Part shown: positions 31,531-64,000 of the stretch, in pieces
How the letters are laid out: each line of letters opens with the position of its first letter
Position numbering within the stretch: the stretch's first letter is position 1
DNA from: Tubulanus polymorphus
Lineage: Eukaryota; Nemertea; Palaeonemertea; Tubulaniformes; Tubulanidae
Length of the DNA stretch: 64,000 nucleotides
NCBI RefSeq assembly: GCF_964204645.1
Contig: NC_134030.1
Coordinates: forward strand, 2,395,855-2,459,854
Direction: 5' to 3'
Position numbers and translations under genes: made by a program
The notes under the pieces: model-generated
Seen by the model: the letters and a program-made list of their open reading frames with translations, nothing else
What the model was told of the DNA's origin: nothing
Databases searched by the model: none

Positions 31531-31922
31531 CTAAGAGAGTAGTAACGTTTAGACTCAATTCTATGAGCTATTTTCAAAACTAAGAGAGTAGTGACGTTTA
31601 GACTTAATTCTATGAGCTATTTTCAAAACTAAGAGAGTAGTGACGTCTGGACTCAATTCTATGAGACATTCTGAAAACTAAGCGAGCAGTGACGTTTAGA
31701 CCTAATTCTATGAAACATTTTCAAAACCTAAGAGAGTTGTGACGTTTAGACTCAATTCTATGAGCCATTCAGAAAACTAAGCAAGTAGTGACGTTTAGAC
31801 TTAATTCTATGAGACATTTTCAAAACCTAAGAGAGTTGTGACGTTTAGACTCAATTCTATGAGCCATTTTCAAAACTAAGAAAGTAGTGACGTTTAGACT
31901 CAATTTTTATGAGCCGTAATCA
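31531..31922. repeat. 49-bp minisatellite, eight units
   Basis: Eight head-to-tail copies of a 49-bp unit (392 bp in total) containing CTAAGAGAGTAGTGACGTTT and TCTATGAG. The units differ at scattered positions. Confidence 0.93.
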
Positions 31923-43502: not shown

Positions 43503-44216
43503 ATGCGGGGATACGTGATTGCCGGTGCTGTATGTTTCGTCGCAGCTCCTTTTGTTCTACCAGCGATTGGTTTTACAGCTGCTGGAATCACTGCTGGATC
43601 CATTGCGTCGTCGATGATGTCAACAGCTGCAGTGGCTAACGGTGGTGCAGTAGCTGCGGGAAGTACGGTAGCCGTTCTTCAGTCGGCTGGTGCAGCAGGT
43701 ACGTGATGCGCTTAATCAAGACTGTACCTAGCATTTGAATTTTGTGGAGGGGGCAGTGAATGGGGCAGTCTATTGGATATATGTAGCAATAATATTTGCA
43801 AAAATGGCACCTAACCAGAATTTCTGGGGGCAATTCCTCCCCACGTCCCCCACTATGTACGGCCCTGTTAATGATAATATAATCTTCAAAAGATATCATA
43901 TAAAGTATATCCCATGGAAATCATAGCAAGTTATTGGGATTGTGCATCTGCAGTAGTAAAATCTATTGCTGATTTGAGTCATGACTTAAGATCTCGATCG
44001 CAGAAACAATTCTAAACAATTACGTTGTCATAGGATATGAGAATATTTCTAAATGTTGAACCTTCTATTGCAATTTAGTCATCGATCTCTTATGTTGCTT
44101 ATAATGTTTTTCGTTTGTTTTCAGGTCTTGGTTTAGGGACTAAATTGACGGCTGGTGCTGTCGGCGTAGGTGCTGTTAAAGCTGTTAAGGTTGCACGGAA
44201 GGCACTGAGACGATAG
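43503..44216 (+). CDS. IFI27/ISG12-like protein, divergent basic paralog (gene 1)
   Basis: Two coding exons, 43503-43698 and 44125-44216, are joined across a 426-bp GT-AG intron (donor GCAG|GTACGT, acceptor TTTTCAG|GT) in phase 1, giving 95 residues. Residues 22-65 contain [22 protein letters not shown] and VLQSAGAAG, the hallmark of the Ifi-6-16 (ISG12) family. Family members in vertebrates are interferon-induced small hydrophobic proteins of mitochondrial or nuclear membranes linked to apoptosis and antiviral defence. Almost the whole chain is hydrophobic with Gly/Ala small-residue packing, so membrane insertion is likely. It differs from genes 2-6 at the N-terminus (MRGY) and in exon 2, which ends in a basic tail ([10 protein letters not shown]). 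The spacer, minisatellite and downstream element of the array are absent. The intron holds a possible transposon end (reverse complement AGGGCCGTACATAGTGGGGG near 43845-43866). The family call is sure; the function is by analogy. Confidence 0.9.
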
Positions 44217-44989
44217 TGTTTGACACTCGTGAATTCATTGACGACGAACTTCTGATAACAAATCGTTTCTGCAATGTATTTCTTTCCATAAACATGTACA
44301 CATATTCTGCGTATATTGTAACCTAATTGGCCTCTACCAAATTGGATTAAAAATGTGATTTAAATATCATCATAGAGTTGTTATAAACGTTTCGAGTTAA
44401 ACCTCTCTAAAGAACTGTCTGGAATTAGCACAGACACCAAGTTCTTAATGAATTTATATACTTTTAAATCTTGGTCGGTTGGATGAGGGTCGTAGAACCG
44501 GGCATAGGAAACAACTACTCCCAGGACTGAGTGACCGCTAAACCCGTTCAAATGCACACAATTTGGGCTGCAGTATACATTTCAAAAACTCGTCGGAGAG
44601 TAGGCCGAGATCTGAATTCTTCTATTCGATCAAAGTTTTCTGTTAATAGATATATGAGATTGCCGATTTTCACCCTTCCCTCCCTTCCCTCTCTCCCCTC
44701 CCTTACCCTCCCTTCCCCCTCCTCTCTCTCCCTCCCCTATGTACGCTTTTAGTACATGTCTAAGGACATGTCCCACGAGTACGTACTTAACGTGACAACC
44801 CCCGCCCCCCCCCCCCATCCCGAATACAATGAAGGATATCATTAGGGTTCGATTAAAACAATGAGACAATGTTATTGAGCTATAAAAGTCATCAGCTAAA
44901 GGTTCCAATCCTTGACCTTGTCCAAATTTGGATAAAAAGAAGGCATTAATATTAAACGAATTATTTGCTCGCGGATAACGCACGTTACG
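44217..44989. other. Spacer between genes 1 and 2, left part
   Basis: Contains ATTAAA (about 44344-44349), a possible polyadenylation signal for gene 1. It also has a weak copy of the CCCAGGACTGAGTGA dispersed repeat (about 44471-44535), a CT-rich tract (44672-44742) and a C-homopolymer near 44802-44817. None of the repeat-unit parts of the later array are here. Confidence 0.55.
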
Positions 44990-45910
44990 CACACAAACTA
45001 CGGCAGACAGAAATATTTGTTTAAATAACATTGCGCTCCCTTAGTAAAAGTACGCTTTAAGTTTATCCCTCCCCTCGTCTGCATTCTTCCTTTTTGTACG
45101 GATTCTGAAACCTCATCCCTTCCTAGAGGCGAACGTGTGGCTTCCTAGACGCCAAATGCCTAGTTACAGCGCAGTACGGTGACAGTACTACGTATGCCTA
45201 CTGCGCAGCAGTATCAACATGCTTCAGTTGGATCGCGGGATTTCCCCAATTCCTCGTATTGAAACTTTCCACACTACCCCATATCATTAAATCCACTGCT
45301 TCTTCCCGAGAACTACAGCAGACAGAAATATTTGTTAAAATCACATTGTGCCCTCTTTGTAAAGTATGTACGCTTTAAGTTTACCCCTCCCCTCCCCTGC
45401 ACCCTTTTGCACAGAAACCTCCTCCCTTCTTAGATGCGAACGTATTTCCTAGAGCCTTGTGACGCTGGCGTATTTATGGCACAGTACTGCATTGAGCGTG
45501 ACAGTACTGTGTACCTACGCGTGTATTGTGCAGCAGTATGTTACATATTAGCATCTACTACGATCGCGAGATTTCCCCAATTCTTCGTATCGAAACCTCG
45601 CCTTTCCCGATTCCTCGTATCGAAACCTCGCCTTTCCCGATTACTCGTATCGAAACCTCGCCTTTCCCGATTACTCGTATCGAAACTTGCCACGTACCCC
45701 ATATGATTAAATCAACGGCTTCTTCCCGAGACGCAATACGTTTTAAGACTCATTTCTGTGATTAAACAGCACGAAGTTTAAAATTAAGGTAAGATAAAAG
45801 TTCGGACATTTTCGAAATATACACATTGGACAACGGCTCAATCTGTTTGATATTTAAGCGGAGAGCTTTTTAGCCACTTCTTGTCCGTTCACTCAGTTTG
45901 ACTGTCAGTA
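44990..45910 (+). promoter_or_regulatory. Upstream regulatory block of gene 2 (two modules)
   Basis: Module A (about 44990-45305) and module B (about 45308-45715) are diverged direct duplicates; both contain GCAGACAGAAATATTTG, ACGCTTTAAGTTTA and a CGCAGTACTG/GCACAGTACTG phrase. GGGATTTCCC (45237-45246) fits the kappaB consensus. Module B ends in 30-bp repeats (CGTATCGAAACCTCGCCTTT units, about 45587-45690). A TATA-like TATTTAA lies at 45851-45857, with candidate starts 24-40 bases downstream. Regulatory role is inferred from conservation and motif content. Confidence 0.4.
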
Positions 45911-46098
45911 CCGGTTCGGTGTGGTCAGACGGTATTAGTTTTAAACACACTATGGACTGTTTTTATATTTGGTTTAGTGTTCATGTTGTAATTTATAACA
46001 TATTCTATGATTGTGGTGAATTTCACTGCTAAAATAATAATTCTCTGAATTTGTTTACCATCGTTGAATATGGAAATATGGGTTGGACTGTCAAGCAA

Positions 46099-46127
46099 TT
46101 CACATAAGCATCAATGGCTTATGTGAA
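46099..46127. repeat. Hairpin upstream of gene 2
   Basis: TTCACATAAGC and GCTTATGTGAA pair perfectly over 11 bp around a 7-base loop. The same position in units 4-6 has CAATGGTTTCCCTGAA and cannot pair. Confidence 0.8.
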
Positions 46128-46344
46128 CCCCTACTGATTGTTACCTGAGATGTCTCGAGGTGTTACTATAACTACATGGTCTCCCGTGCAACGTTTTGAT
46201 GCCCAATTTTGTTAATAATCAATTGTGCTAACTTCGTATATCGTTGATAATGAAAAGAAAAACAAGTTTTTCTGAACAATTTGATAAACGCAGGTCAACT
46301 GAACGAAATAACTGATCAAAAAATCGCATTCAATTAATTTCAGA

Positions 46345-47050
46345 ATGGAATATATCCTTGGCGGTGTCGTAGCTGTGGTCGCAGCTCCTTTTGTTCTACC
46401 AGCGATTGGTTTTACAGCTGCTGGAATCACTGCTGGGTCCGCCGCTGCATCGATGATGTCAGCAGCTGCAGTGGCTAACGGTGGTGCAGTAGCTGCGGGA
46501 AGTACGGTAGCCGTTCTTCAGTCGGCTGGTGCAGCAGGTACGTATGATTCTAAAAATAATGCATATTAACCGTTACAATACCATTTCAGACTGATTTAAT
46601 GCTGTTTTAGAAAATCGCGGAAATAAAAACTAGTCTGAAACGGTTTCTTATAGTTTCAACTTTTCGATTACTGTTTATAGTCAATCTTAGATATATTCCT
46701 GAAGATGACCTTAATAAGCAGGGTCCGATCTAAGGAATGAAATCCACTTGCCCGGGTGGCAAGCATATCTGAAATTTCGCTTGTTCACAGACAGTCCGAT
46801 TGGTGGCACTAGGATATAGTCAAAACTTTGAAAAACGTATACAAAACATTACCTCAGCAATAAAACCTCCGAAGTTCGAAATCGTCGTTTCTTTTGAGTG
46901 TGGAATTTATTACGTGAAGACATTTTGATTTTAATTTGATATGCATGTTTTTCAGGTCTTGGTTTAGCGGCTAATGCGGTGGCTGGTGTTACCGGTGCAT
47001 CGGCTGTTAAAGCTGCAGAGCTTGCTCTGGATATCGTGAATGGTGATTAG
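46345..47050 (+). CDS. IFI27/ISG12-like protein (gene 2, MEYI type)
   Basis: Exons 46345-46537 and 46956-47050 with a 418-bp phase-1 intron (GCAG|GTACGTATG, TTTTTCAG|GTCTTGG) give 95 residues. The ATG is the second base after an acceptor (AATTTCAG at 46343), so an upstream untranslated exon is likely and the start is well fixed. Residues 21-65 carry [26 protein letters not shown] and VLQSAGAAG, the Ifi-6-16 signature. Exon 2 encodes [20 protein letters not shown] and an acidic end [10 protein letters not shown]. Hydrophobic Ala/Gly segments at about 5-25, 28-60 and 64-85 predict a membrane-embedded protein. By family analogy it would act at mitochondrial or nuclear membranes in stress or antiviral responses; nothing in the sequence fixes that. 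If exon 1 is read on without splicing, the frame ends after ten further residues. Confidence 0.93.
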
Positions 47051-47093
47051 TTTAAATGTCTAACACCTGTTATCTTTAACTAGTTTCCTTGTC

Positions 47094-47364
47094 GCAGGGG
47101 CGGATTTGATGGTGCTCTCGGGGATCCAGACCTCTTTCTTCCCGTTGAGGTTGTTCTTTGTGTCAAGACAAAAAATCTTTCTGCAAATTTGACACTCATT
47201 CTCTCAAAAAACTACAATCTTTCGGACGTATTTCTTCACAAATAAAACCAAGGGCGGAACCACGTGGAACCCCAGTAGAGGCTTTTAACTTCACTGCTTT
47301 AAACCAGAAATATGAATTTTCATCCGACCCTGTCTTCAAATTATTTTTTAAGATCCGCCCCTGC
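47094..47364. mobile_element. 271-bp inverted-repeat element in unit 2
   Basis: Ends GCAGGGGCGGAT and ATCCGCCCCTGC are perfect 12-bp inverted repeats. GTC borders it on both sides (47091-47093 and 47365-47367), a possible 3-bp duplication. CAGGGGCGGAT-type ends resemble hAT-like MITEs. It starts 43 bases after the stop codon, so it probably lies in the 3' untranslated region and supplies AATAAA inside it (about 47239) and just beyond (AAATAAAA near 47399). Confidence 0.75.
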
Positions 47365-48641
47365 GTCCATTGAATCATCGGATTAAATCAGCGATGATGA
47401 AATAAAATGTAATTAAAAAATCACTTTGTACAAATTTAAACTCTAAAAAAATCGAATTCTATTAAATCAAAAGATCATTAAATCGAAAAAAAACACGATT
47501 ATTAATCCGACCCTCACTATTTAAAGATCCTTGTCCGTGTATTTCTTATTCATTATAACGTGTAATTTAATTCAATAAATTGAAGCGAACAAAGTGAAAT
47601 AAAGGTTTTCGATTTAGTTGTATCTCAAACCTGTATTCTAAAAACACATCACGTAATTTCTACGAAATATGTCTTAAAGACGTGTCCTGGCCGTGTATCG
47701 GCGATCCCCCTTTGAACATACCCCATATCTGTTCACATCAAACACGACTAAACGAGGAAGTCAATTATGTTTCTCATTTACTGAATGTAATTATAACTAC
47801 GTATGAAGGATCACGTGATGGAGAACGGCGAACGCTTGAAACTCGTTTTGTCTTAGTTTACTGAACGGAAAGTCGTCATCATCATCAAATTCACGGACGG
47901 AAGGAGGCCTGGTGGTGGCCTATTGGTGTCCGGCTCGTTTGTTGATTAGTATTGGTTTAGGTGACAGGGTTTCCATAAAAAGCTCTCTCACTTAATGATA
48001 TTTCATTACAAATAATTGGTATATTTATTCATTACTAAAACAATAAATTGTTTATAGAGTTGATTAGTTGAATTTTATAAAAGTCTGATCAGTCATAATT
48101 AACAGTTTTGGCGTAGTTAATTTGATAAGTCATACACGCTTGATTTCTAGCCATTTTGTAGATTATCTACCAGGAGAAGGTTTTATTCGGTCCATAAATA
48201 CGAGTGTTATTCGTGTTGTTCGTGTTGTTCTGAAATGGTAAAGGAAGTGCTTGTGGCCCAAGGTGAACGTATCGGCAACCTCTATGGAGGTACCAGGATG
48301 AATCCCGCCGACATTGTACCACGTTGTATTAAGTCGAATTGAAAATCGCCTGCGGAGTATGCGGGAGTACTTGGCGTTAACGTCCGGCTTTTAGGGGTAA
48401 CTTGCGTAGGAAATTGTTTGATAAAAAGTATCCGTAACTTATAGAAGTTTAAAAGTTGCGCTATTGCTATCGCTGTTACTAATAGCCACCGGAATGGTGA
48501 CGGTTATTTCTTTTTTTTGTCGTGTAAATCGAATCGTGTACGATGACGGCAAACTGTAAGAAATTCAACACTGACTTTAAAAAATTCAACGCAAACTTTT
48601 GAAAAATTCATCTTGGTTATAGAATTAAAAACTAACTGTAC
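47365..48641. other. Conserved spacer of unit 2
   Basis: No gene seen. AATAAA-like signals lie near 47399 and 47573. The 60-codon frame at about 47.68-47.86 kb recurs in all units only because the spacer is duplicated; it has no known motif. The spacer also carries GTGTTATTCGTGTTGTTCGT near 48201-48220. Confidence 0.55.
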
Positions 48642-48992
48642 GATTGTGAGTTGGTTGTAAGATTGTGAGTTGATTGTAAGATTGTGAGTTGGTTGTAAGA
48701 TTGTGAGTTGGTTGTAAGATTGTGAGTTGGTTGTAAGATTGCGAGTTGATTGTAAGATTGTGAGTTGGTTGTAAGATTGTGAGTTGGTTGTAAGATTGTG
48801 AGTTGATTGTAAGATTGTGAGTTGGTTGTAAGATTGTGAGTTGGTTGTAAGATTGTGAGTTGGTTGTAAGATTGTGAGTTGGTTGTAAGATTGTGAGTTG
48901 ATTGTAAGATTGTGAGTTGATTATAAGATTGTGAGTTGATTATAAGATTGTGAGTTGGTTGTAAGATTGTGAGTTGGTTGTAAGATTGCGAG
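48642..48992. repeat. 19-bp minisatellite, 18 units plus 9 bp (unit 2)
   Basis: The unit is GATTGTGAGTTGGTTGTAA with G/A and T/C variants. Its length is exactly 18 x 19 + 9; the array always ends GATTGCGAG before TACGTTGTT. Confidence 0.95.
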
Positions 48993-49009
48993 TACGTTGT
49001 TAAAAATGC

Positions 49010-49860
49010 GATGTAGAGTTTTTGCTAGGATGGCGTTCCATAAACCCCCTCCCTTCCTAGAGCCTTTAGAACGCCTAGTTATAGCGCAGTACTGTATTGA
49101 ACGTAATAGTACTATGTGTACTGTCCAGTTATAGTTCGATCGCGGGATTTTCCCGATTCCTCGTATCGAAACCTCGCCTTTCCCGATTCCTAGTATACAT
49201 TCCATATTCGGCGCAAAGTTCAAGTTCAAGTTCCTCCTATCGAAACTTGCCACGTACCCCATATGATTAAATCAACGGCTTCTTCCCGAGAACTACAGCA
49301 GACAGAAAAATTTGTTAAAATCACATTGTGCCCTCTTTGTAAAGTATGTACGCTTTAAGTTTACCCCTCCCCTCCCCTGCACCCTTTTGCACAGAAACCT
49401 CCTCCCTTCTTAGATGCGAACGTATTTCCTAGAGCCTTGTGACGCCTGCGTATTTATGGCACAGTACTGCATTGAGCGTGACAGTACTGTGTACCTACGC
49501 GTGTATTGTGCAGCAGTATGTTACATATTAGCATCTACTACGATCGCGAGATTTCCCCAATTCTTCGTATCGAAACCTCGCCTTTCCCGATTACTCGTAT
49601 CGAAACCTCGCCTTTCCCGATTCCTCGTATCGAAACTTGCCACGTACCCCATATGATTAAATCAACGGCTTCTTCCCGAGACGCGATACGTTTTAAGACT
49701 CATTTCTGTGATTAAACAGCACGAAGTTTAAGATTAAGGTAAGATAATAGTTTGGACATTTTCGAAATATACACATTGGACAACGGCTCAATCTGTTTGA
49801 TATTTAAGCGGAAAGCTTTTTAGCCACTTCTTGTCCGTTCACTCAGTTTGACTGTCAGTA
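49010..49860 (+). promoter_or_regulatory. Upstream regulatory block of gene 3 (two modules)
   Basis: Retains module A (partial, 49010-49270) with palindromic CGGGATTTTCCCG, its kappaB-like core GGGATTTTCC at 49144-49153. Module B follows (about 49276-49690), with the 30-bp repeats near 49567-49640. TATTTAA is at 49801-49807. The stretch present in other units after the ATTTATAAC phrase (about 130 bp, including the hairpin site) is missing here. Confidence 0.4.
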
Positions 49861-50162
49861 CCGGTTCGGTGTGGTCAGACGGTATTAGTTTTAAACACAC
49901 TATGGACTGTTTTTATATTTGGTTTAGTGTTCATGTTGTAATTTATAACTACTGATTGTTACCTGAGATGCCTCGAGGTGTTACTATAACTACATGGTCT
50001 CCCGTGCAACGTTTTGATGCCCAATTTTGTTAATAATCAATTGTGCTAACTTCGTATATCGTTGATAATGAAAAGAAAAACAAGTTTTTCTGAACAATTT
50101 GATAAACGCAGGTCAACTGAACGAAATAACAGATCAAAAAATCGCATTCAATTAATTTCAGA

Positions 50163-50819
50163 ATGGAATATTTCCTTGGCGGTGTCGTAGCTGTGGTCGC
50201 AGCTCCTTTTGTTCTACCAGCGATTGGTTTTACAGCTGCTGGAATCACTGCTGGGTCCGCCGCTGCATCGATGATGTCAGCAGCTGCAGTGGCTAACGGT
50301 GGTGCAGTAGCTGCGGGAAGTACGGTAGCCGTTCTTCAGTCGGCTGGTGCAGCAGGTACGTATGATTCTGAAAATAATGCATATTAACCGTTACAATACC
50401 ATTTCAGACTGATTTAATGCTGATTTAGAAAATCGCGGAAATAAAAACTAGTCTGAAACGGTTTCTTATAGTTTCAACTTTAATAAGCAGGGTCCGATCT
50501 AAGGAATGAAATCCACTTGCCCGGGTGGCAATCATATCTGAAATTTCGCTTGTTCACAGACAGTCCGATTGGTGGCACTAGGATATAGTCAAAACTTTGA
50601 AAAACGTATACAAAACATTACCTCAGCAATAAAACCTCCGAAGTTCGAAATCGTCGTTTCTTTTGAGTGTGGAATTTATTACGTGAAGACATTTTGATTT
50701 TAATTTGATATGCATGTTTTTCAGGTCTTGGTTTAGCGGCTAATGCGGTGGCTGGTGTTACCGGTGCATCGGCTGTTAAAGCTGCAGAGCTTGCTCTGGA
50801 TATCGTGAATGGTGATTAG
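50163..50819 (+). CDS. IFI27/ISG12-like protein (gene 3, MEYF type)
   Basis: Exons 50163-50355 and 50725-50819, 95 residues, same splice sites and phase as gene 2. The protein differs from gene 2 by Ile4 to Phe. The intron is only 369 bp. Relative to the other units it lacks about 48 bases containing a GATTACTGTTTATAGTC ... CCTGAAGATGACC segment. It also has a shortened 5' flank, so this copy may differ in processing or expression. Family signature and predicted membrane character are as in gene 2. Confidence 0.93.
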
Positions 50820-50862
50820 TTTAAATGTCTAACACCTGTTATCTTTAACTAGTTTCCTTGTC

Positions 50863-51133
50863 GCAGGGGCGGATTTGATGGTGCTCTCGGGGATCCAGAC
50901 CTCTTTCTTCCCGTTGAGGTTGTTCTTTGTGTCAAGACAAAAAATCTTTCTGCAAATTTGACACTCATTCTCTCAAAAAACTACAATCTTTCGGACGTAT
51001 TTCTTCACAAATAAAACCAAGGGCGGAACCACGTGGAACCCCAGTAGAGGCTTTTAACTTCACTGCTTTAAACCAGAAATATGAATTTTCATCCGACCCT
51101 GTCTTCAAATTATTTTTTAAGATCCGCCCCTGC
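50863..51133. mobile_element. 271-bp inverted-repeat element in unit 3
   Basis: Same length, ends and position relative to the stop codon as in unit 2; the presence at an identical site shows it was inserted before the units were duplicated. Confidence 0.75.
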
Positions 51134-52406
51134 GTCCATTGAATCATCGGATTAAATCAGCGATGATGAAATAAAATGTAATTAAAAAATCACTTTGTAC
51201 AAATTTAAACTCTAAAAAAATCGAATTCTATTAAATCAAAAGATCATTAAATCGAAAAAAAACACGATTATTAATCCGACCCTCACTATTTAAAGATCCT
51301 TGTCCGTGTATTTCTTATTCATTATAACGTGTAATTTAATTCAATAAATTGAAGCAAACAAAGTGAAATAAAGGTTTTCGATTTAGTTGTATCTCAAACC
51401 TGTATTCTAAAAACACATCACGTAATTTCTACGAAATATGTTTTAAAAACGTGTCCTGGCCGTGTATCAGCGATCCCCCTTTGAACATACCCCATATCTG
51501 TTCACATCAAACACGACTAAACGAGGAAGTCAATTATGTTTCTCATTTACTGAATGTAATTATAACTACGTATGAAGGATCACGTGATGGAGAACGGCGA
51601 ACGCTTGAAACTCGTTTTGTCTTAGTTTACTGAACGGAAAGTCGTCATCATCATCAAATTCACGGACGGAAGGAGGCCTGGTGGTGGCCTATTGGTGTCC
51701 GGCTCGTTTGTTGATTAGTATTGGTTTAGGTGACAGGGTTTCCATAAAAAGCTCTCTCACTTTATGATATTTCATTACAAATAATTGGTATATTTATTCA
51801 TTACTAAAACAATAAATTGTTTATAGAGTTGATTAGTTGAATTTTATAAAAGTCTGATCAGTCATAATTAACAGTTTTGGCGTAGTTAATTTGATAAGTC
51901 ATACACGCTTGATTTCTAGCCATTTTGTAGATTATCTACCAGGAGAAGGTTTTATTCGGTCCATAAATACGAGTGTTATTCGTGTTGTTCGTGTTGTTCT
52001 GAAAAGGTAAAGGAAGTGCTTGTGGCCCAAGGTGAACGTATCGGCAACCTCTATGGAGGTACCAGGATGAATCCCGCCGACATTGTACCACGTTGTATTA
52101 AGTCGAATTGAAAATCGCCTGCGGAGTATGCGGGAGTACTTGGCGTTAACGTCCGGCTTTTAGGGGTAACTTGCGTAGGAAATTGTTTGATAAAAAGTAT
52201 CCGTAACTTATAGAAGTTTAAAAGTTGCGCTATTGCTATCGCTATTACTAATAGCCACCGGAATGGTGACGGTTATTTCTTTTTTTTGTCGTGTAAATCG
52301 AATCGTGTACGATGACGGCAAACTGTAAGAAATTCAACACTGACTTCAATTCAACGCAAACTTTTGAAAAATTCATCTTGGTTATAGAATTAAAAACTAA
52401 CTGTAC
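51134..52406. other. Conserved spacer of unit 3
   Basis: Nearly identical to the unit 2 spacer, with single-base changes such as GTATCAGCGATCC against GTATCGGCGATCC. No gene recognised. Confidence 0.55.
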
Positions 52407-52624
52407 GATTGTGAGTTGGTTGTAAGATTGTGAGTTGATTGTAAGATTGTGAGTTGGTTGTAAGATTGTGAGTTGATTGTAAGATTGTGAGTTGGTTGTA
52501 AGATTGTGAGTTGGTTGTAAGATTGTGAGTTGGTTGTAAGATAGCGAGTTGGTTGTAAGATTGTGAGTTGGTTGTAAGATTGTGAGTTGGTTGTAAGATT
52601 GTGAGTTGGTTGTAAGATTGCGAG
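52407..52624. repeat. 19-bp minisatellite, 11 units plus 9 bp (unit 3)
   Basis: The shortest of the five arrays; length is exactly 11 x 19 + 9. One unit reads GATAGCGAG. Confidence 0.95.
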
Positions 52625-52639
52625 TACGTTGTTAAAAAT

Positions 52640-53095
52640 GCGATGTAGAGTTTTTGCTAGGATGGCGTTCCATAAACCCCCTCCCTTCCTAGAGCCTTTA
52701 GAACGCCTAGTTATAGCGCAGTACTGTATTGAACGTAATAGTACTATGTGTACTGTCCAGTTATAGTTCGATCGCGGGATTTTCCCGATTCCTCGTATCG
52801 AAACCTCGCCTTTCCCGATTCCTCGTATCGAAACCTCGCCTTTCCCGATTCCTCGTATCGAAACTTGCCACGTACCCCATATGATTAAATCAACGGCTTC
52901 TTCCCGATACGCAATACGTTTTAAGACTCATTTCTGTGATTAAACAGCACGAAGTTTAAGATTAAGGTAAGATAAAAGTTTGGACATTTTCGAAATATAC
53001 ACATTGGACAACGGCTCAATCTGTTTGATATTTAAGCGGAGAGCTTTTTAGCCACTTCTTGTCCGTTCACTCAGTTTGACTGTCAGTACCGGTTC
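52640..53095 (+). promoter_or_regulatory. Upstream regulatory block of gene 4 (fused module)
   Basis: A single module starts like module A and ends like module B. The kappaB-like GGGATTTTCC at 52776-52785 runs directly into the 30-bp repeats (52786-52866). TATTTAA is at 53029-53035. The roughly 400-bp interval present in unit 3 is absent. Confidence 0.4.
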
Positions 53096-53522
53096 GGTGT
53101 GGTCAGACGGTATTAGTTTTAAACACACTATGGACTGTTTTTATATTTGGTTTAGTGTTCATGTTGTAATTTATAACATATTCTATGATTGTGGTGAATT
53201 TCACTGCTAAAATAATAATTCTCTGAATTTGTTTACCATCGTTGAATATGGAAATATGGACTGGACTGTCAAGCAATTCACATAAGCATCAATGGTTTCC
53301 CTGAACCCCTACTGATTGTTACCTGAGATGTCTCGAGGTGTTACTATAACTACATGGTCTCCCGTGCAACGTTTTGATGCCCAATTTTGTTAATAATCAA
53401 TTGTGCTAACTTCGTATATCGTTGATAATGAAAAGAAAAACAAGTTTTTCTGAACAATTTGATAAACGCAGGTCAACTGAACGAAATAACTGATCAAAAA
53501 ATCGCATTCAATTAATTTCAGA

Positions 53523-54227
53523 ATGGAATATTTCCTTGGCGGTGTCGTAGCTGTGGTCGCAGCTCCTTTTGTTCTACCAGCGATTGGTTTTACAGCTGCT
53601 GGAATCACTGCTGGGTCCGCCGCTGCATCGATGATGTCAGCAGCTGCAGTGGCTAACGGTGGTGCAGTAGCTGCGGGAAGTACGGTAGCCGTTCTTCAGT
53701 CGGCTGGTGCAGCAGGTACGTATGATTCTGAAAATAATGCATATTAACCGTTACAATACCATTTCAGACTGATTTAATGCTGTTTTAGAAAATCGCGGAA
53801 ATAAAAACTAGTCTGAAACGGTTTCTTATAGTTTCAACTTTTCGATTACTGTTTATAGTCAATTTTAGAATATTCCTGAAGATGACCTTAATAAGCAGGG
53901 TCCGATCTAAGGAATGAAATCCACTTGCCCGGGTGGCAAGCATATCTGAAATTTCGCTTGTTCACAGACAGTCCGATTGGTGGCACTAGGATATAGTCAA
54001 AACTTTGAAAAACGTATACAAAACATTACCTCAGCAATAAAACCTCCGAAGTTCGAAATCGTCGTTTCTTTTGAGTGTGGAATTTATTACGTGAAGACAT
54101 TTTGATTTTAATTTGATATGCATGTTTTTCAGGTCTTGGTTTAGCGGCTAATGCGGTGGCTGGTGTTACCGGTGCATCGGCTGTTAAAGCTGCAGAGCTT
54201 GCTCTGGATATCGTGAATGGTGATTAG
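53523..54227 (+). CDS. IFI27/ISG12-like protein (gene 4, MEYF type)
   Basis: Exons 53523-53715 and 54133-54227 with a 417-bp phase-1 intron encode 95 residues, identical in sequence to gene 3. Unlike gene 3 the intron is full length, so the MEYF coding form exists with two intron versions. The kappaB-like and TATA-like motifs lie about 750 and 490 bases upstream. Function by family analogy only. Confidence 0.93.
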
Positions 54228-54270
54228 TTTAAATGTCTAACACCTGTTATCTTTAACTAGTTTCCTTGTC

Positions 54271-54541
54271 GCAGGGGCGGATTTGATGGTGCTCTCGGGG
54301 ATCCAGACCTCTTTCTTCCCGTTGAGGTTGTTCTTTGTGTCAAGACAAAAAATCTTTCTGCAAATTTGACACTCATTCTCTCAAAAAACTACAATCTTTC
54401 GGACGTATTTCTTCACAAATAAAACCAAGGGCGGAACCACGTGGAACCCCAGTAGAGGCTTTTAACTTCACTGCTTTAAACCAGAAATATGAATTTTCAT
54501 CCGACCCTGTCTTCAAATTATTTTTTAAGATCCGCCCCTGC
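54271..54541. mobile_element. 271-bp inverted-repeat element in unit 4
   Basis: Perfect 12-bp terminal inverted repeats, 43 bases after the stop codon, as in the other units. Confidence 0.75.
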
Positions 54542-55820
54542 GTCCATTGAATCATCGGATTAAATCAGCGATGATGAAATAAAATGTAATTAAAAAATCA
54601 CTTTGTACAAATTTAAACTCTAAAAAAATCGAATTCTATTAAATCAAAAGATCATTAAATCGAAAAAAAACACGATTATTAATCCGACCCTCACTATTTA
54701 AAGATCCTTGTCCGTGTATTTCTTATTCATTATAACGTGTAATTTAATTCAATAAATTGAAGCGAACAAAGTGAAATAAAGGTTTTCGATTTAGTTGTAT
54801 CTCAAACCTGTATTCTAAAAACACATCACGTAATTTCTACGAAATATGTTTTAAAAACGTGTCCTGGCCGTGTATCAGCGATCCCCCTTTGAACATACCC
54901 CATATCTGTTCACATCAAACACGACTAAACGAGGAAGTCAATTATGTTTCTCATTTACTGAATGTAATTATAACTACGTATGAAGGATCACGTGATGGAG
55001 AACGGCGAACGCTTGAAACTCGTTTTGTCTTAGTTTACTGAACGGAAAGTCGTCATCATCATCAAATTCACGGACGGAAGGAGGCCTGGTGGTGGCCTAT
55101 TGGTGTCCGGCTCGTTTGTTGATTAGTATTGGTTTAGGTGACAGGGTTTCCATAAAAAGCTCTCTCACTTAATGATATTTCATTACAAATAATTGGTATA
55201 TTTATTCATTACTAAAACAATAAATTGTTTATAGAGTTGATTAGTTGAATTTTATAAAAGTCTGATCAGTCATAATTAACAGTTTTGGCGTAGTTAATTT
55301 GATAAGTCATACACGCTTGATTTCTAGCCATTTTGTAGATTATCTACCAGGAGAAGGTTTTATTCGGTCCATAAATACGAGTGTTATTCGTGTTGTTCGT
55401 GTTGTTCTGAAAAGGTAAAGGAAGTGCTTGTGGCCCAAGGTGAACGTATCGGCAACCTCTATGGAGGTACCAGGATGAATCCCGCCGACATTGTACCACG
55501 TTGTATTAAGTCGAATTGAAAATCGCCTGCGGAGTATGCGGGAGTACTTGGCGTTTACGTCCGGCTTTTAGGGGTAACTTGCGTAGGAAATTGTTTGATA
55601 AAAAGTATCCGTAACTTATAGAAGTTTAAAAGTTGCGCTATTGCTATCGCTATTACTAATAGCCACCGGAATGGTGACGGTTATTTCTTTTTTTTTTGTC
55701 GTGTAAATCGAATCGTGTACGATGACGGCAAACTGTAAGAAATTCAACACTGACTTTAAAAAATTCAACGCAAACTTTTGAAAAATTCATCTTGGTTATA
55801 GAATTAAAAACTAACTGTAC
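54542..55820. other. Conserved spacer of unit 4
   Basis: Same as other units except GCGTTTACGTCC for GCGTTAACGTCC (about 55551) and a longer T run near 55688. No gene recognised. Confidence 0.55.
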
Positions 55821-56247
55821 GATTGTGAGTTGGTTGTAAGATTGTGAGTTGGTTGTAAGATTGTGAGTTGGTTGTAAGATTGTGAGTTGGTTGTAAGATT
55901 GCGAGTTGGTTGTAAGATTGTGAGTTGGTTGTAAGATAGCGAGTTGGTTGTAAGATTGCGAGTTGGTTGTAAGATTGTGAGTTGGTTGTAAGATTGTGAG
56001 TTGATTGTAAGATTGTGAGTTGGTTGTAAGATTGTGAGTTGGTTGTAAGATTGTGAGTTGATTATAAGATTGTGAGTTGATTATAAGATTGTGAGTTGAT
56101 TATAAGATTGTGAGTTGGTTGTAAGATTGTGAGTTGGTTGTAAGATTGTGAGTTGGTTGTAAGATTGTGAGTTGGTTGTAAGATTGTGAGTTGGTTGTAA
56201 GATTGTGAGTTGGTTGTAAGATTGTGAGTTGGTTGTAAGATTGCGAG
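55821..56247. repeat. 19-bp minisatellite, 22 units plus 9 bp (unit 4)
   Basis: The longest array; exactly 22 x 19 + 9. It contains three consecutive GATTATAA variants also seen in units 2 and 6. Confidence 0.95.
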
Positions 56248-56262
56248 TACGTTGTTAAAAAT

Positions 56263-56718
56263 GCGATGTAGAGTTTTTGCTAGGATGGCGTTCCATAAAC
56301 CCCCTCCCTTCCTAGAGCCTTTAGAACGCCTAGTTATAGCGCAGTACTGTATTGAACGTAATAGTACTATGTGTACTGTCCAGTTATAGTTCGATCGCGG
56401 GATTTTCCCGATTCCTCGTATCGAAACCTCGCCTTTCCCGATTCCTCGTATCGAAACCTCGCCTTTCCCGATTCCTCGTATCGAAACTTGCCACGTACCC
56501 CATATGATTAAATCAACGGCTTCTTCCCGATACGCAATACGTTTTAAGACTCATTTCTGTGATTAAACAGCACGAAGTTTAAGATTAAGGTAAGATAAAA
56601 GTTTGGACATTTTCGAAATATACACATTGGACAACGGCTCAATCTGTTTGATATTTAAGCGGAGAGCTTTTTAGCCACTTCTTGTCCGTTCACTCAGTTT
56701 GACTGTCAGTACCGGTTC
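56263..56718 (+). promoter_or_regulatory. Upstream regulatory block of gene 5 (fused module)
   Basis: kappaB-like GGGATTTTCC at 56399-56408 is followed by the 30-bp repeats; TATTTAA is at 56652-56658. Confidence 0.4.
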
Positions 56719-57145
56719 GGTGTGGTCAGACGGTATTAGTTTTAAACACACTATGGACTGTTTTTATATTTGGTTTAGTGTTCATGTTGTAATTTATAAC
56801 ATATTCTATGATTGTGGTGAATTTCACTGCTAAAATAATAATTCTCTGAATTTGTTTACCATCGTTGAATATGGAAATATGGGCTGGACTGTCAAGCAAT
56901 TCACATAAGCATCAATGGTTTCCCTGAACCCCTACTGATTGTTACCTGAGATGCCTCGAGGTGTTACTATAACTACATGGTCTCCCGTGCAACGTTTTGA
57001 TGCCCAATTTTGTTAATAATCAATTGTGCTAACTTCGTATATCGTTGATAATGAAAAGAAAAACAAGTTTTTCTGAACAATTTGATAAACGCAGGTCAAC
57101 TGAACGAAATAACTGATCAAAAAATCGCATTCAATTAATTTCAGA

Positions 57146-57851
57146 ATGGAATATATCCTTGGCGGTGTCGTAGCTGTGGTCGCAGCTCCTTTTGTTCTAC
57201 CAGCGATTGGTTTTACAGCTGCTGGAATCACTGCTGGGTCCGCCGCTGCATCGATGATGTCAGCAGCTGCAGTGGCTAACGGTGGTGCAGTAGCTGCGGG
57301 AAGTACGGTAGCCGTTCTTCAGTCGGCTGGTGCAGCAGGTACGTATGATTCTGAAAATAATGCATATTAACCGTTACAATACCATTTCAGACTGATTTAA
57401 TGCTGTTTTAGAAAATCGCGGAAATAAAAACTAGTCTGAAACGGTTTCTTATAGTTTCAACTTTTCGATTACTCTTTATAGTCAATCTTAGATATATTCC
57501 TGAAGATGACCTTAATAAGCAGGGTCCGATCTAAGGAATGAAATCCACTTGCCCGGGTGGCAATCATATCTGAAATTTCGCTTGTTCACAGACAGTCCGA
57601 TTGGTGGCACTAGGATATAGTCAAAACTTTGAAAAACGTATACAAAACATTACCTCAGCAATAAAACCTCCGAAGTTCGAAATCGTCGTTTCTTTTGAGT
57701 GTGGAATTTATTACGTGAAGACATTTTGATTTTAATTTGATATGCATGTTTTTCAGGTCTTGGTTTAGCGGCTAATGCGGTGGCTGGTGTTACCGGTGCA
57801 TCGGCTGTTAAAGCTGCAGAGCTTGCTCTGGATATCGTGAATGGTGATTAG
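57146..57851 (+). CDS. IFI27/ISG12-like protein (gene 5, MEYI type)
   Basis: Exons 57146-57338 and 57757-57851 with a 418-bp phase-1 intron; 95 residues identical to gene 2 (Ile at position 4). It combines the gene 2 protein type with the fused upstream module of unit 4, a mosaic expected from recombination between units. Other properties as for gene 2. Confidence 0.93.
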
Positions 57852-57894
57852 TTTAAATGTCTAACACCTGTTATCTTTAACTAGTTTCCTTGTC

Positions 57895-58165
57895 GCAGGG
57901 GCGGATTTGATGGTGCTCTCGGGGATCCAGACCTCTTTCTTCCCGTTGAGGTTGTTCTTTGTGTCAAGACAAAAAATCTTTCTGCAAATTTGACACTCAT
58001 TCTCTCAAAAAACTACAATCTTTCGGACGTATTTCTTCACAAATAAAACCAAGGGCGGAACCACGTGGAACCCCAGTAGAGGCTTTTAACTTCACTGCTT
58101 TAAACCAGAAATATGAATTCTCATCCGACCCTGTCTTCAAATTATTTTTTAAGATCCGCCCCTGC
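57895..58165. mobile_element. 271-bp inverted-repeat element in unit 5
   Basis: Same element and position; one private change makes GAATTC out of GAATTT near 58118. Confidence 0.75.
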
Positions 58166-59442
58166 GTCCATTGAATCATCGGATTAAATCAGCGATGATG
58201 AAATAAAATGTAATTAAAAAATCACTTTGTACAAATTTAAACTCTAAAAAAATCGAATTCTATTAAATCAAAAGATCATTAAATCGAAAAAAAACACGAT
58301 TATTAATCCGACCCTCACTATTTAAAGATCCTTGTCCGTGTATTTCTTATTCATTATAACGTGTAATTTAATTCAATAAATTGAAGCAAACAAAGTGAAA
58401 TAAAGGTTTTCGATTTAGTTGTATCTCAAACCTGTATTCTAAAAACACATCACGTAATTTCTACGAAATATGTTTTAAAAACGTGTCCTGGCCGTGTATC
58501 AGCGATCTCCCTTTGAACATACCCCATATCTGTTCACATCAAACACGACTAAACGAGGAAGTCAATTATGTTTCTCATTTACTGAATGTAATTATAACTA
58601 CGTATGAAGGATCACGTGATGGAGAACGGCGAACGCTTGAAACTCGTTTTGTCTTAGTTTACTGAACGGAAAGTCGTCATCATCATCAAATTCACGGACG
58701 GAAGGAGGCCTGGTGGTGGCCTATTGGTGTCCGGCTCGTTTGTTGATTAGTATTGGTTTAGGTGACAGGGTTTCCATAAAAAGCTCTCTCACTTAATGAT
58801 ATTTCATTACAAATAATTGGTATATTTATTCATTACTAAAACAATAAATTGTTTATAGAGTTGATTAGTTGAATTTTATAAAAGTCTGATCAGTCATAAT
58901 TAACAGTTTTGGCGTAGTTAATTTGATAAGTCATACACGCTTGATTTCTAGCCATTTTGTAGATTATCTACCAGGAGAAGGTTTTATTCGGTCCATAAAT
59001 ACGAGTGTTATTCGTGTTGTTCGTGTTGTTCTGAAAAGGTAAAGGAAGTGCTTGTGGCCCAAGGTGAACGTATCGGCAACCTCTATGGAGGTACCAGGAT
59101 GAATCCCGCCGACATTGTACCACGTTGTATTAAGTCGAATTGAAAATCGCCTGCGGAGTATGCGGGAGTACTTGGCGTTAACGTCCGGCTTTTAGGGGTA
59201 ACTTGCGTAGGAAATTGTTTGATAAAAAGTATCCGTAACTTATAGAAGTTTAAAAGTTGCGCTATTGCTATCGCTATTACTAATAGCCACCGGAATGGTG
59301 ACGGTTATTTCTTTTTTTTGTCGTGTAAATCGAATCGTGTACGATGACGGCAAACTGTAAGAAATTCAACACTGACTTTAAAAAATTCAACGCAAACTTT
59401 TGAAAAATTCATCTTGGTTATAGAATTAAAAACTAACTGTAC
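58166..59442. other. Conserved spacer of unit 5
   Basis: Nearly identical to the other spacers; GATCTCCC replaces GATCCCCC near 58504. No gene recognised. Confidence 0.55.
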
Positions 59443-59717
59443 GATTGTGAGTTGGTTGTAAGATTGTGAGTTGATTGTAAGATTGTGAGTTGGTTGTAAG
59501 ATTGTGAGTTGATTGTAAGATTGTGAGTTGGTTGTAAGATTGTGAGTTGGTTGTAAGATTGTGAGTTGATTGTAAGATTGTGAGTTGATTGTAAGATTGT
59601 GAGTTGGTTGTAAGATTGTGAGTTGGTTGTAAGATAGCGAGTTGGTTGTAAGATTGTGAGTTGGTTGTAAGATTGTGAGTTGGTTGTAAGATTGTGAGTT
59701 GGTTGTAAGATTGCGAG
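59443..59717. repeat. 19-bp minisatellite, 14 units plus 9 bp (unit 5)
   Basis: Exactly 14 x 19 + 9. It shares the GATAGCGAG variant near its right end with unit 3. Confidence 0.95.
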
Positions 59718-59732
59718 TACGTTGTTAAAAAT

Positions 59733-60188
59733 GCGATGTAGAGTTTTTGCTAGGATGGCGTTCCATAAACCCCCTCCCTTCCTAGAGCCTTTAGAACGCC
59801 TAGTTATAGCGCAGTACTGTATTGAACGTAATAGTACTATGTGTACTGTCCAGTTATAGTTCGATCGCGGGATTTTCCCGATTCCTCGTATCGAAACCTC
59901 GCCTTTCCCGATTCCTCGTATCGAAACCTCGCCTTTCCCGATTCCTCGTATCGAAACTTGCCACGTACCCCATATGATTAAATCAACGGCTTCTTCCCGA
60001 GACGCAATACGTTTTAAGACTCATTTCTGTGATTAAACAGCACGAAGTTTAAGATTAAGGTAAGATAAAAGTTTGGACATTTTCGAAATATACACATTGG
60101 ACAACGGCTCAATCTGTTTGATATTTAAGCGGAGAGCTTTTTAGCCACTTCTTGTCCGTTCACTCAGTTTGACTGTCAGTACCGGTTC
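59733..60188 (+). promoter_or_regulatory. Upstream regulatory block of gene 6 (fused module)
   Basis: kappaB-like GGGATTTTCC at 59869-59878, 30-bp repeats after it, TATTTAA at 60122-60128. Confidence 0.4.
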
Positions 60189-60615
60189 GGTGTGGTCAGA
60201 CGGTATTAGTTTTAAACACACTATGGACTGTTTTTATATTTGGTTTAGTGTTCATGTTGTAATTTATAACATATTCTATGATTGTGGTGAATTTCACTGC
60301 TAAAATAATAATTCTCTGAATTTGTTTACCATCGTTGAATATGGAAATATGGACTGGACTGTCAAGCAATTCACATAAGCATCAATGGTTTCCCTGAACC
60401 CCTACTGATTGTTACCTGAGATGTCTCGAGGTGTTACTATAACTACATGGTCTCCCGTGCAACGTTTTGATGCCCAATTTTGTTAATAATCAATTGTGCT
60501 AACTTCGTATATCGTTGATAATGAAAAGAAAAACAAGTTTTTCTGAACAATTTGATAAACGCAGGTCAACTGAACGAAATAACAGATCAAAAAATCGCAT
60601 TCAATTAATTTCAGA

Positions 60616-61322
60616 ATGGAATATATCCTTGGCGGTGTCGTAGCTGTGGTCGCAGCTCCTTTTGTTCTACCAGCGATTGGTTTTACAGCTGCTGGAATCA
60701 CTGCTGGGTCCGCCGCTGCATCGATGATGTCAGCAGCTGCAGTGGCTAACGGTGGTGCTGTAGCTGCAGGAAGTACGGTAGCCGTTCTTCAGTCGGCTGG
60801 TGCAGCAGGTACGTATGATTCTGAAAATAATGCATATTAACCGTTACAATACCATTTCAGACTGATTTAATGCTGATTTAGAAAATCGCGGAAATAAAAA
60901 CTAGTCTGAAACGGTTTCTTATAGTTTCAACTTTTCGATTCGATTTATTATAGTCAATCTTAGAATATTCCTGAAGATGACCTTAATAAGCAGGGTCCGA
61001 TCTAAGGAATGAAATCCACTTGCCCGGGTGGCAAGCATATCTGAAATTTCGCTTGTTCACAGACAGTCCGATTGGTGGCACTAGGATATAGTCAAAACTT
61101 TGAAAAACGTATACAAAACATTACCTCAGCAATAAAACCTCCGAAGTTCGAAATCGTCGTTTCTTTTGAGTGTGGAATTTATTACGTGAAGACATTTTGA
61201 TTTTAATTTGATATGCATGTTTTTCAGGTCTTGGTTTAGCGGCTAATGCGGTGGCTGGTGTTACCGGTGCATCGGCTGTTAAAGCTGCAGAGCTTGCTCT
61301 GGATATCGTGAATGGTGATTAG
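60616..61322 (+). CDS. IFI27/ISG12-like protein (gene 6, MEYI type)
   Basis: Exons 60616-60808 and 61228-61322 with a 419-bp phase-1 intron; 95 residues identical to genes 2 and 5. Exon 1 carries two silent third-position changes (GGTGCTGTAGCTGCAGG against GGTGCAGTAGCTGCGGG), the only synonymous differences I see among the exons of genes 2-6. That shows how recent or homogenised the array is. Confidence 0.93.
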
Positions 61323-61365
61323 TTTAAATGTCTAACACCTGTTATCTTTAACTAGTTTCCTTGTC

Positions 61366-61636
61366 GCAGGGGCGGATTTGATGGTGCTCTCGGGGATCCA
61401 GACCTCTTTCTTCCCGTTGAGGTTGTTCTTTGTGTCAAGACAAAAAATCTTTCTGCAAATTTGACACTCATTCTCTCAAAAAACTACAATCTTTCGGACG
61501 TATTTCTTCACAAATAAAACCAAGGGCGGAACCACGTGGAACCCCAGTAGAGGCTTTTAGCTTCACTGCTTTAAACCAGAAATATGAATTTTCATCCGAC
61601 CCTGTCTTCAAATTATTTTTTAAGATCCGCCCCTGC
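61366..61636. mobile_element. 271-bp inverted-repeat element in unit 6
   Basis: Same element and position. One A-to-G change (TTTTAGCTTC near 61556) is private to this unit. Confidence 0.75.
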
Positions 61637-62911
61637 GTCCATTGAATCATCGGATTAAATCAGCGATGATGAAATAAAATGTAATTAAAAAATCACTTTG
61701 TACAAATTTAAACTCTAAAAAAATCGAATTCTATTAAATCAAAAGATCATTAAATCGAAAAAAAACACGATTATTAATCCGACCCTCACTATTTAAAGAT
61801 CCTTGTCCGTGTATTTCTTATTCATTATAACGTGTAATTTAATTCAATAAATTGAAGCAAACAAAGTGAAATAAAGGTTTTCGATTTAGTTGTATCTCAA
61901 ACCTGTATTCTAAAAACACATCACGTAATTTCTACGAAATATGTTTTAAAAACGTGTCCTGGCCGTGTATCAGCGATCCCCCTTTGAACATACCCCATAT
62001 CTGTTCACATCAAACACGACTAAACGAGGAAGTCAATTATGTTTCTCATTTACTGAATGTAATTATAACTACGTATGAAGGATCACGTGATGGAGAACGG
62101 CGAACGCTTGAAACTCGTTTTGTCTTAGTTTACTGAACGGAAAGTCGTCATCATCATCAAATTCACGGACGGAAGGAGGCCTGGTGGTGGCCTATTGGTG
62201 TCCGGCTCGTTTGTTGATTAGTATTGGTTTAGGTGACAGGGTTTCCATAAAAAGCTCTCTCACTTAATGATATTTCATTACAAATAATTGGTATATTTAT
62301 TCATTACTAAAACAATAAATTGTTTATAGAGTTGATTAGTTGAATTTTATAAAAGTCTGATCAGTCATAATTAACAGTTTTGGCGTAGTTAATTTGATAA
62401 GTCATACACGCTTGATTTCTAGCCATTTTGTAGATTATCTACCAGGAGAAGGTTTTATTCGGTCCATAAATACGAGTGTTATTCGTGTTGTTCGTGTTGT
62501 TCTGAAAAGGTAAAGGAAGTGCTTGTGGCCCAAGGTGAACGTATCGGCAACCTCTATGGAGGTACCAGGATGAATCCCGCCGACATTGTACCACGTTGTA
62601 TTAAGTCGAATTGAAAATCGCCTGCGGAGTATGCGGGAGTACTTGGCGTTAACGTCCGGCTTTTAGGGGTAACTTGCGTAGGAAATTGTTTGATAAAAAG
62701 TATCCGTAACTTATAGAAGTTTAAAAGTTGCGCTATTGCTATCGCTATTACTAATAGCCACCGGAATGGTGACGGTTATTTCTTTTTTTTGTCGTGTAAA
62801 TCGAATCGTGTACGATGACGGCAAACTGTAAGAAATTCAACACTGACTTTAAAAAATTCAACGCACTTTTGAAAAATTCATCTTGGTTATAGAATTAAAA
62901 ACTAACTGTAC
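61637..62911. other. Conserved spacer of unit 6
   Basis: As in the other units apart from a 2-base loss near 62866 (CGCACTTTTG). No gene recognised. Confidence 0.55.
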
Positions 62912-63186
62912 GATTGTGAGTTGGTTGTAAGATTGTGAGTTGATTGTAAGATTGTGAGTTGGTTGTAAGATTGTGAGTTGGTTGTAAGATTGTGAGTTGG
63001 TTATAAGATTGCGAGTTGATTGTAAGATTGTGAGTTGGTTGTAAGATTGTGAGTTGGTTGTAAGATTGTGAGTTGGTTGTAAGATTGTGAGTTGATTGTA
63101 AGATTGTGAGTTGATTATAAGATTGTGAGTTGATTATAAGATTGTGAGTTGGTTGTAAGATTGTGAGTTGGTTGTAAGATTGCGAG
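62912..63186. repeat. 19-bp minisatellite, 14 units plus 9 bp (unit 6)
   Basis: Same length as the unit 5 array but with a different order of variants, so equal length does not mean identical history. Confidence 0.95.
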
Positions 63187-63201
63187 TACGTTGTTAAAAA
63201 T

Positions 63202-64000
63202 GCGATGTAGAGTTTTTGCTAGGATGGCGTTCCATAAACCCTCCCTTCCTAGAGCCTTTAGAACGCCTAGTTATAGCGCAGTACTGTATTGAACGTAATA
63301 GTACTATGTGTACTGTCCAGTTATAGTTCGATCGCGGGATTTTCCCGATTCCTCGTATCGAAACCTCGCCTTTCCCGATTCCTCGTATCGAAACCTCGCC
63401 TTTCCCGATTCCTCGTATCGAAACTTGCCACGTACCCCATATGATTAAATCAACGGCTTCTTCCCGAGACGCAATACCTTTTAAGACTCATTTCTGTGAT
63501 TAAACAGCACGAAGTTTAAGATTAAGGTAAGATAAAAGTTTGGACATTTTCGAAATATACACATTGGACAACGGCTCAATCTGTTTGATATTTAAGCGGA
63601 GAGCTTTTTAGCCACTTCTTGTCCGTTCACTCAGTTTGACTGTCAGTACCGGTTCGGTGTGGTCAGACGGTATTAGTTTTAAACACACTATGGACTGTTT
63701 TTATATTTGGTTTAGTGTTCATGTTGTAATTTATAACATATTCTATGATTGTGGTGAATTTCACTGCTAAAATAATAATTCTCTGAATTTGTTCACCATC
63801 GTTGAATATGGAAATATGGGCTGGACTGTCAAGCAATTCACATAAGCATCAATGGCTTATGTGAACCCCTACTGATTGTTACCTGAGATGTCTCGAGGTG
63901 TTACTATAACTACATGGTCTCCCGTGCAACGTTTTGATGCCCAATTTTGTTAATAATCAATTGTGCTAACTTCGTATATCGTTGATAATGAAAAGAAAAA
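63202..64000 (+). promoter_or_regulatory. 5' flank of a seventh IFI27-like gene, cut by the window edge
   Basis: Contains kappaB-like GGGATTTTCC at 63336-63345, the 30-bp repeats, TATTTAA at 63589-63595 and an intact 11-bp hairpin at 63837-63865. The sequence at 64000 corresponds to 60533 in unit 6, so a coding start would be expected about 83 bases beyond the window. Confidence 0.7.

Follow-up and report, generated by a model that had tools for sequence, protein, structure and literature searches.

The 64,000-nucleotide DNA stretch analysed here (the window; G000:C6:2395855-2459854, from an assembly of 267.8 Mb in 77 contigs) contains, towards its right end, a tandem array of genes of the Ifi-6-16 family (IFI6/IFI27/ISG12). 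As assembled, the array is comprised of eight Ifi-6-16-like genes on contig C6, which are arranged head to tail on the plus strand, and six of which are complete in the window. Seven of the eight are near-identical and, by their pattern of variation, this set is young and reshuffled. We consider it probable that the array grew through the amplification of a unit that had received an insertion, that its units exchanged sequence by unequal crossing-over and gene conversion, and that its effect is on gene dosage. The region examined spans 84 kb, namely the window and the next 20 kb of C6, where genes 7 and 8 are located; coordinates are window positions, continued past 64,000 for these two genes.

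A genome-wide profile search, in which nine of nine candidates were scored, returned nine exon-1 matches, eight in the array and one on contig C9. Every gene is composed of two coding exons and encodes a product of 95 amino acids; the intron measures 369-426 bp in the array genes versus 902 bp in the C9 gene, and all eight array genes retain open reading frames and functional-looking splice signals without disruption. The repeating unit is approximately 3.4-3.8 kb in size. An earlier reading made from the sequence alone (the sequence-only reading) had described six complete two-exon genes and the flank of a seventh, and exact coordinates were found for all six, with positions 63341-64000 corresponding to the flank of gene 7:

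43503-44216, plus strand: gene 1, coding exons 43503-43698 and 44125-44216; divergent older edge gene, 95 amino acids, with a basic C-terminus
46345-47050, plus strand: gene 2, coding exons 46345-46537 and 46956-47050
50163-50819, plus strand: gene 3, coding exons 50163-50355 and 50725-50819; I4F, intron shortened to 369 bp
53523-54227, plus strand: gene 4, coding exons 53523-53715 and 54133-54227; I4F
57146-57851, plus strand: gene 5, coding exons 57146-57338 and 57757-57851
60616-61322, plus strand: gene 6, coding exons 60616-60808 and 61228-61322
63341-64000, plus strand: 5' flank of gene 7, whose ATG lies beyond the window at 64083 in extended coordinates
67835-68540, plus strand: gene 8, in window-extended coordinates

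The assignment to the Ifi-6-16 family (PF06140), for which a profile search had been proposed, held: gene 2 scored 93.9 bits and gene 1 89.4 bits against a curated cut-off of 29.1, the match spanned 78 of the 84 profile positions, and all nine exon-1 places in the genome exceeded the cut-off. The best solved-structure match by sequence was PDB 2LOQ, human IFI27L1 (IFI27-like protein 1), with E values of 2.9e-14 for gene 2 and 1.2e-13 for gene 1. The array products are small, strongly hydrophobic, predicted membrane proteins: for genes 1, 2 and C9 the mass is 8.5-8.9 kDa, alanine, glycine and valine make up 56-64% of the residues, and a clear hydrophobic stretch is found at approximately residues 1-30 in all three proteins tested, with further hydrophobic windows starting at residue 17 in gene 1 and at residues 48 and 64 in C9. 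The isoelectric point (pI) is acidic for gene 2 (4.1) and basic for gene 1 (11.6) and C9 (9.9); much of this contrast is located in the last 15 residues, which exon 2 encodes and whose net charge is -2, +6 and +3, respectively.

Genes 2-8 vary at three coding sites, which are the replacement I4F, shared by genes 3 and 4, and silent changes at codons 48 and 51. This is exactly the one residue and two silent changes previously noted for genes 2-6, to which genes 7 and 8 add no variable coding site. The units are approximately 99% identical, and genes 2-8 differ pairwise by a mean of 0.50% in the coding sequence (CDS); the corresponding means are 0.72% for the intron and 0.31% for the initial 800 bp of 3' flank. 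Since conservation of the CDS does not clearly exceed that of the adjoining sequence, the similarity of the copies reflects recency or exchange rather than selection at the protein level. The sequence-only reading was right that introns and spacers are near-identical; they are not uniform, as gene 3 carries deletions of 132 bp and approximately 50 bp and a 19-bp minisatellite between the units is variable. Nor does the near-identity seen in genes 2-6 extend to gene 1, which is divergent and older.

The growth of the array can be followed through an interspersed element of 455 bp, which is found at an identical position in each of units 2-7 and is missing from unit 8. In the array units the element is flanked on both sides by AAGTCG, while unit 8 displays the uninterrupted site with one AAGTCG. 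Unit 8 most likely represents the pre-insertion state, and units 2-7 would then descend from a single inserted unit. The copies within the window are the following:

47876-48330, unstranded: 455-bp element, unit 2, with AAGTCG at 47870-47875 and 48331-48336
51645-52099, unstranded: 455-bp element, unit 3
55053-55507, unstranded: 455-bp element, unit 4
58677-59131, unstranded: 455-bp element, unit 5
62148-62602, unstranded: 455-bp element, unit 6

Elsewhere in the genome at least nine copies match over at least 340 query bases with 80-92% identity; the search gave 41 rows, with 40 of 66 candidates scored, and its counts are lower bounds. Because the matches outside the array often begin at query base 4, three bases inside the left AAGTCG, the border of the element and the length of its target-site duplication are uncertain. 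Its common left end, varying right ends and terminal TCATCATCATC suggest a retroelement-like origin. All seven units 2-8 carry a second stretch, resembling a miniature inverted-repeat transposable element (MITE), which for this reason is probably older than the 455-bp insertion, and for which no target-site duplication was recognised:

47095-47363, unstranded: MITE-like stretch (269 bp; ends inverted, CAGGGGCGGAT...ATCCGCCCCTG), present in all units 2-8

The units have also exchanged sequence, since, under a four-gamete test, a single tree cannot accommodate 39 of the 78 pairs of informative sites in units 2-8 (13 sites, each gap-free and with two states, each state being present in at least two units). 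A candidate substrate for this exchange is a minisatellite with a 19-bp unit, TGTAAGATTGTGAGTTGGT, which is located at the unit junctions and comprises approximately 19, 11, 22, 14, 15 and 10 copies after units 2-7 (361, 228, 437, 285, 285 and 228 bp, respectively). With a four-copy query, 10 of 41 rows were matches outside the array, each partial or weaker. Unequal crossing-over between these junction repeats is the simplest reading of the exchange. Degenerate repeats related to the junction sequence are found at the left edge of the array, ahead of gene 2:

44996-45731, plus strand: left-edge repeats, degenerate direct repeats (approximately 80-86%) and 30-bp repeats
48637-48997, plus strand: 19-bp minisatellite, junction 2/3, approximately 19 copies
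52402-52629, plus strand: 19-bp minisatellite, junction 3/4, approximately 11 copies
55816-56252, plus strand: 19-bp minisatellite, junction 4/5, approximately 22 copies
59438-59722, plus strand: 19-bp minisatellite, junction 5/6, approximately 14 copies
62907-63191, plus strand: 19-bp minisatellite, junction 6/7, approximately 15 copies

Gene 1, which by its divergence is older than genes 2-8, appears to have taken part in the exchange through one block of its first exon:

43539-43708, plus strand: conversion-like tract of gene 1 (exon-1 block), with 94.7% identity to gene 2

This block adjoins diverged N-terminal codons and an intron that cannot be aligned. Compared with gene 2, gene 1 has diverged in exon 2 and over its first 13 codons, intron identity (46%) is close to the mean of shuffled sequence (45%), and only the first six intron bases agree. 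Synonymous divergence (dS) between the two genes is 0.09 in codons 14-65 and 0.56 in the first 13 codons. For genes 2-5, the longest run of variant sites shared with gene 1 was attained in 2, 0, 1 and 0 of 20,000 permutations, respectively; for genes 6-8, where this run covers a different stretch of exon 1, the counts were 27, 36 and 31. Another permutation run gave 0 for gene 2, 2 for gene 3 and 22 for gene 6. A conversion limited to exon 1 fits these data best.

There is a bolder version, to which we give very little credence, in which the array would have overwritten exon 1 of gene 1 through the template of a spliced transcript (cDNA). It would account for a tract whose end lies no more than about six bases from the exon-intron border, next to an unalignable intron, and for a run of identity with genes 2-5 that in spliced order crosses the exon junction (87 bases, of which 75 are in exon 1 and 12 in exon 2); if true, a homogenised core would have been joined to divergent exon-2 tails with a switched C-terminal charge. 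The 12 exon-2 bases, however, are nearly the same in C9 too, and therefore plain conversion of exon 1 suffices. Positive selection on exon 2 is not claimed: the contrast of silent and replacement changes between exons 1 and 2 gave p 0.001 for gene 2 versus C9 and p 0.21 for gene 1 versus C9, and exon 2 alone was not significant (p 0.10).

Taken together, the following course of events is proposed. The starting point would have been an ancestral gene akin to both gene 1 and the C9 paralogue, duplicated head to tail in a unit of approximately 3.4-3.8 kb; the 455-bp element would then have inserted into one unit, and the inserted version would have been amplified to six copies, leaving the uninserted unit 8 at the edge. 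Exchange would have proceeded by unequal crossing-over, seeded by the variable junction repeats, and by gene conversion. The earlier suggestion of recent duplication or continuing conversion thus finds backing on both counts, in the probable spread of the insertion-bearing unit and in the exchange among the units and with gene 1. From the family to which they belong, which is also what the earlier label 'innate-immunity-type' draws on, each gene would provide a small, very hydrophobic membrane protein with a part in defence, whether antiviral or apoptotic. The array would raise the dosage of one product rather than its diversity, because seven genes encode two proteins that are one residue apart.

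Three other explanations were weighed. An assembly artefact, by which haplotype copies or repeats were stacked so that the true genes are far fewer, or by which the array was collapsed so that they are more, is unlikely. The approximately 99% identity of the units would invite such an explanation, as would the assembly gap elsewhere in the window and the recurrence of minisatellite lengths in two pairs (228 bp twice and 285 bp twice). The six minisatellites nevertheless all differ in sequence, the equal-length pairs included (at 6 of 228 and 13 of 285 positions); genes 3 and 8 possess private deletions, unit 8 is without the 455-bp element, and the array contains no N, the sole N run within the 84 kb being the 100-N assembly gap at 2824-2923. 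Stacking of a single unit would not yield such differences, of which two divergent stacked haplotypes could explain a few. The caution of the sequence-only reading about the copy number in the assembly stands. It is similarly improbable that purifying selection at the nucleotide level, and not exchange, holds exon 1 of gene 1 close to the array. All copies, C9 among them, have a conserved exon-1 protein, as such selection would have it; yet the same codons 14-65 that differ so little between genes 1 and 2 have a dS of 0.43 (gene 1) and 0.47 (gene 2) with respect to C9, and, for every one of the seven array genes, very few permutations yield a run as long as the shared one.

That the array is an ordinary product of drift without an immune role, for instance a duplicated mitochondrial or apoptotic house-keeping gene, is possible, if rather doubtful. 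It would agree with a CDS that shows no sign of greater conservation than introns and flanks among the copies, and with the inconsistent occurrence of the interferon-stimulated response element (ISRE). Against drift stand the intact frames and splice sites of all eight array genes, an antiviral homologue in shrimp (PMC9144789) and 25 IFI27 transcripts in the Sydney rock oyster (PMC4892480). In favour of the proposed reading, the same genome encodes IRF DNA-binding domains, with five exon matches, which together with the genome size suggest that the host is an animal and probably an invertebrate; those at C1:28067862-28068164 (L022) and C4:21902602-21902901 (L025) are each situated inside a single open frame of 415 amino acids.

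Several observations weigh against the proposed history and role of the array. An exact deletion between two AAGTCG copies in unit 8 is an alternative that would mimic an empty site. The right-most unit stops before any minisatellite, with no junction-type repeats in the 2.2 kb there, and three variable coding sites are too little coding diversity to reveal selection. A search of the 1.3 kb upstream of each ATG detected the canonical ISRE GAAANNGAAA in gene 8 and C9 only, and not in genes 1-7; the STING_LBD profile had no match, in a search that had no positive control; and the shrimp report describes early expression of the homologue as lowered by bacterial stimuli (PMC9144789). We nevertheless retain the amplified, exchanging array as the probable explanation. 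In a probable invertebrate that possesses IRF genes, such an array would offer a copy-number series for linking the dosage of one effector to the outcome of infection, and the empty-site unit 8 together with the variable junction repeats makes it a tractable case of how immune-type arrays grow.

The upstream regions indicate that the two coding exons are not the whole of the gene anatomy: the two-exon structure noted before stands for the coding part, to which an additional non-coding 5' exon has to be added as a suggestion. An acceptor-like AG is located one base ahead of the ATG (AG-A) in all nine genes, with a poorer pyrimidine stretch in gene 1. Genes 2 and 4-7 display a TATA-like GATATTTAAG at -496 and a donor-like CAGACG/GTATTAG (the slash marking the exon border) at -413; in gene 3 these are found at -364 and -281, and in gene 8 the TATA-like GATATTTAAG is at -400, with the donor-like motif not found upstream. 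A non-coding first exon is likely for the array genes because of this combination of AG, TATA-like and donor-like motifs. As a 96-bp gap upstream of gene 8 spans the predicted donor, gene 8 may be expressed differently from the other copies. A kappaB-like GGGATTTTCCC is present once at each of the six unit junctions, the other places in the window being 49144, 56399, 59869 and 63336. Its 10-base core GGGATTTTCC occurs at seven places in the 84 kb, and since six of them are array junctions, and thus copies of a single event, the motif is a lead only.

45849-45931, plus strand: putative core promoter and non-coding first exon of gene 2, with TATA-like GATATTTAAG and donor CAGACG/GTATTAG
52776-52786, plus strand: kappaB-like GGGATTTTCCC at junction 3/4, motif match only

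Four open reading frames (ORFs) shared by the units, at 47149-47370, 47598-47861, 48166-48390 and 48285-48503, had no Pfam match over a cut-off, and none of the 20 ORFs selected for scanning in all passed one. Rfam at gathering thresholds gave no match in the window, COX1 was likewise without a match, the mollusc haemocyanin profile found nothing in a search that had no positive control, and tblastn confirmed no viral relative of gene 2 exon 1 among 172 pattern matches. Upstream of the array, the window contains a 53-bp satellite (37515-38396, approximately 16.5 copies at 95%), a compound GGT-rich repeat of 1.5 kb with strong GC skew (33647-35165), and minisatellites of 33 bp (15078-15344) and 49 bp (31527-31915).

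The Ifi-6-16 family itself, its occurrence in invertebrates and the tandem growth of gene families are already known. IFI27-like genes are best known as vertebrate interferon-stimulated genes, and the vertebrate members of the family have a mitochondrial or endoplasmic reticulum location. The array proteins resemble this Ifi-6-16 or FAM14 group (IFI6, IFI27, IFI27L1, IFI27L2; PF06140) in their profile match and their sequence match to 2LOQ, and differ from it in being 95 amino acids long and beginning a few residues ahead of the family domain, in the acidic product of gene 2 as opposed to the basic ones of gene 1 and C9, and in the presence of eight genes in a single array. Among the literature matches listed, mostly judged by title and the start of the abstract, none described a homogenised IFI27 array with this anatomy.

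The layout recalls the 'SRS x N + unit + SRS x N' model of tandem amplification, which describes units bordered by short repeats that vary in copy number (PMC8831618). In the array, short repeats follow units 2-7 and related ones occupy the left edge; unlike in the model, the right-most unit ends without a repeat, and the exchange is deduced here from sequence alone. In corals, one study proposes that lineage-specific gene families arose via recurrent tandem duplication by non-allelic recombination (PMC12314368).

The closest functional comparison is with LvIFI6-16 of the whiteleg shrimp, likewise an invertebrate family member in a host that also has IRF. According to that report, challenge with white spot virus raises its expression up to 434-fold, silencing of IRF or STAT reduces this expression, and silencing of LvIFI6-16 itself leads to higher virus load and mortality (PMC9144789). 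The shrimp protein is 136 amino acids long with a reported signal peptide, and one gene was cloned; for this gene there are expression and knock-down results, whereas the array is known from its DNA. A viral-resistance quantitative trait locus in sea bass is also reported to contain an IFI6/IFI27-like gene (PMC10161657). Multiple IFI27-like products in an invertebrate are likewise seen in the Sydney rock oyster, for which the available part of a transcriptome study tabulates 25 IFI27 transcripts (PMC4892480); the oyster data provide transcript counts, whereas the present data provide the anatomy of an array.

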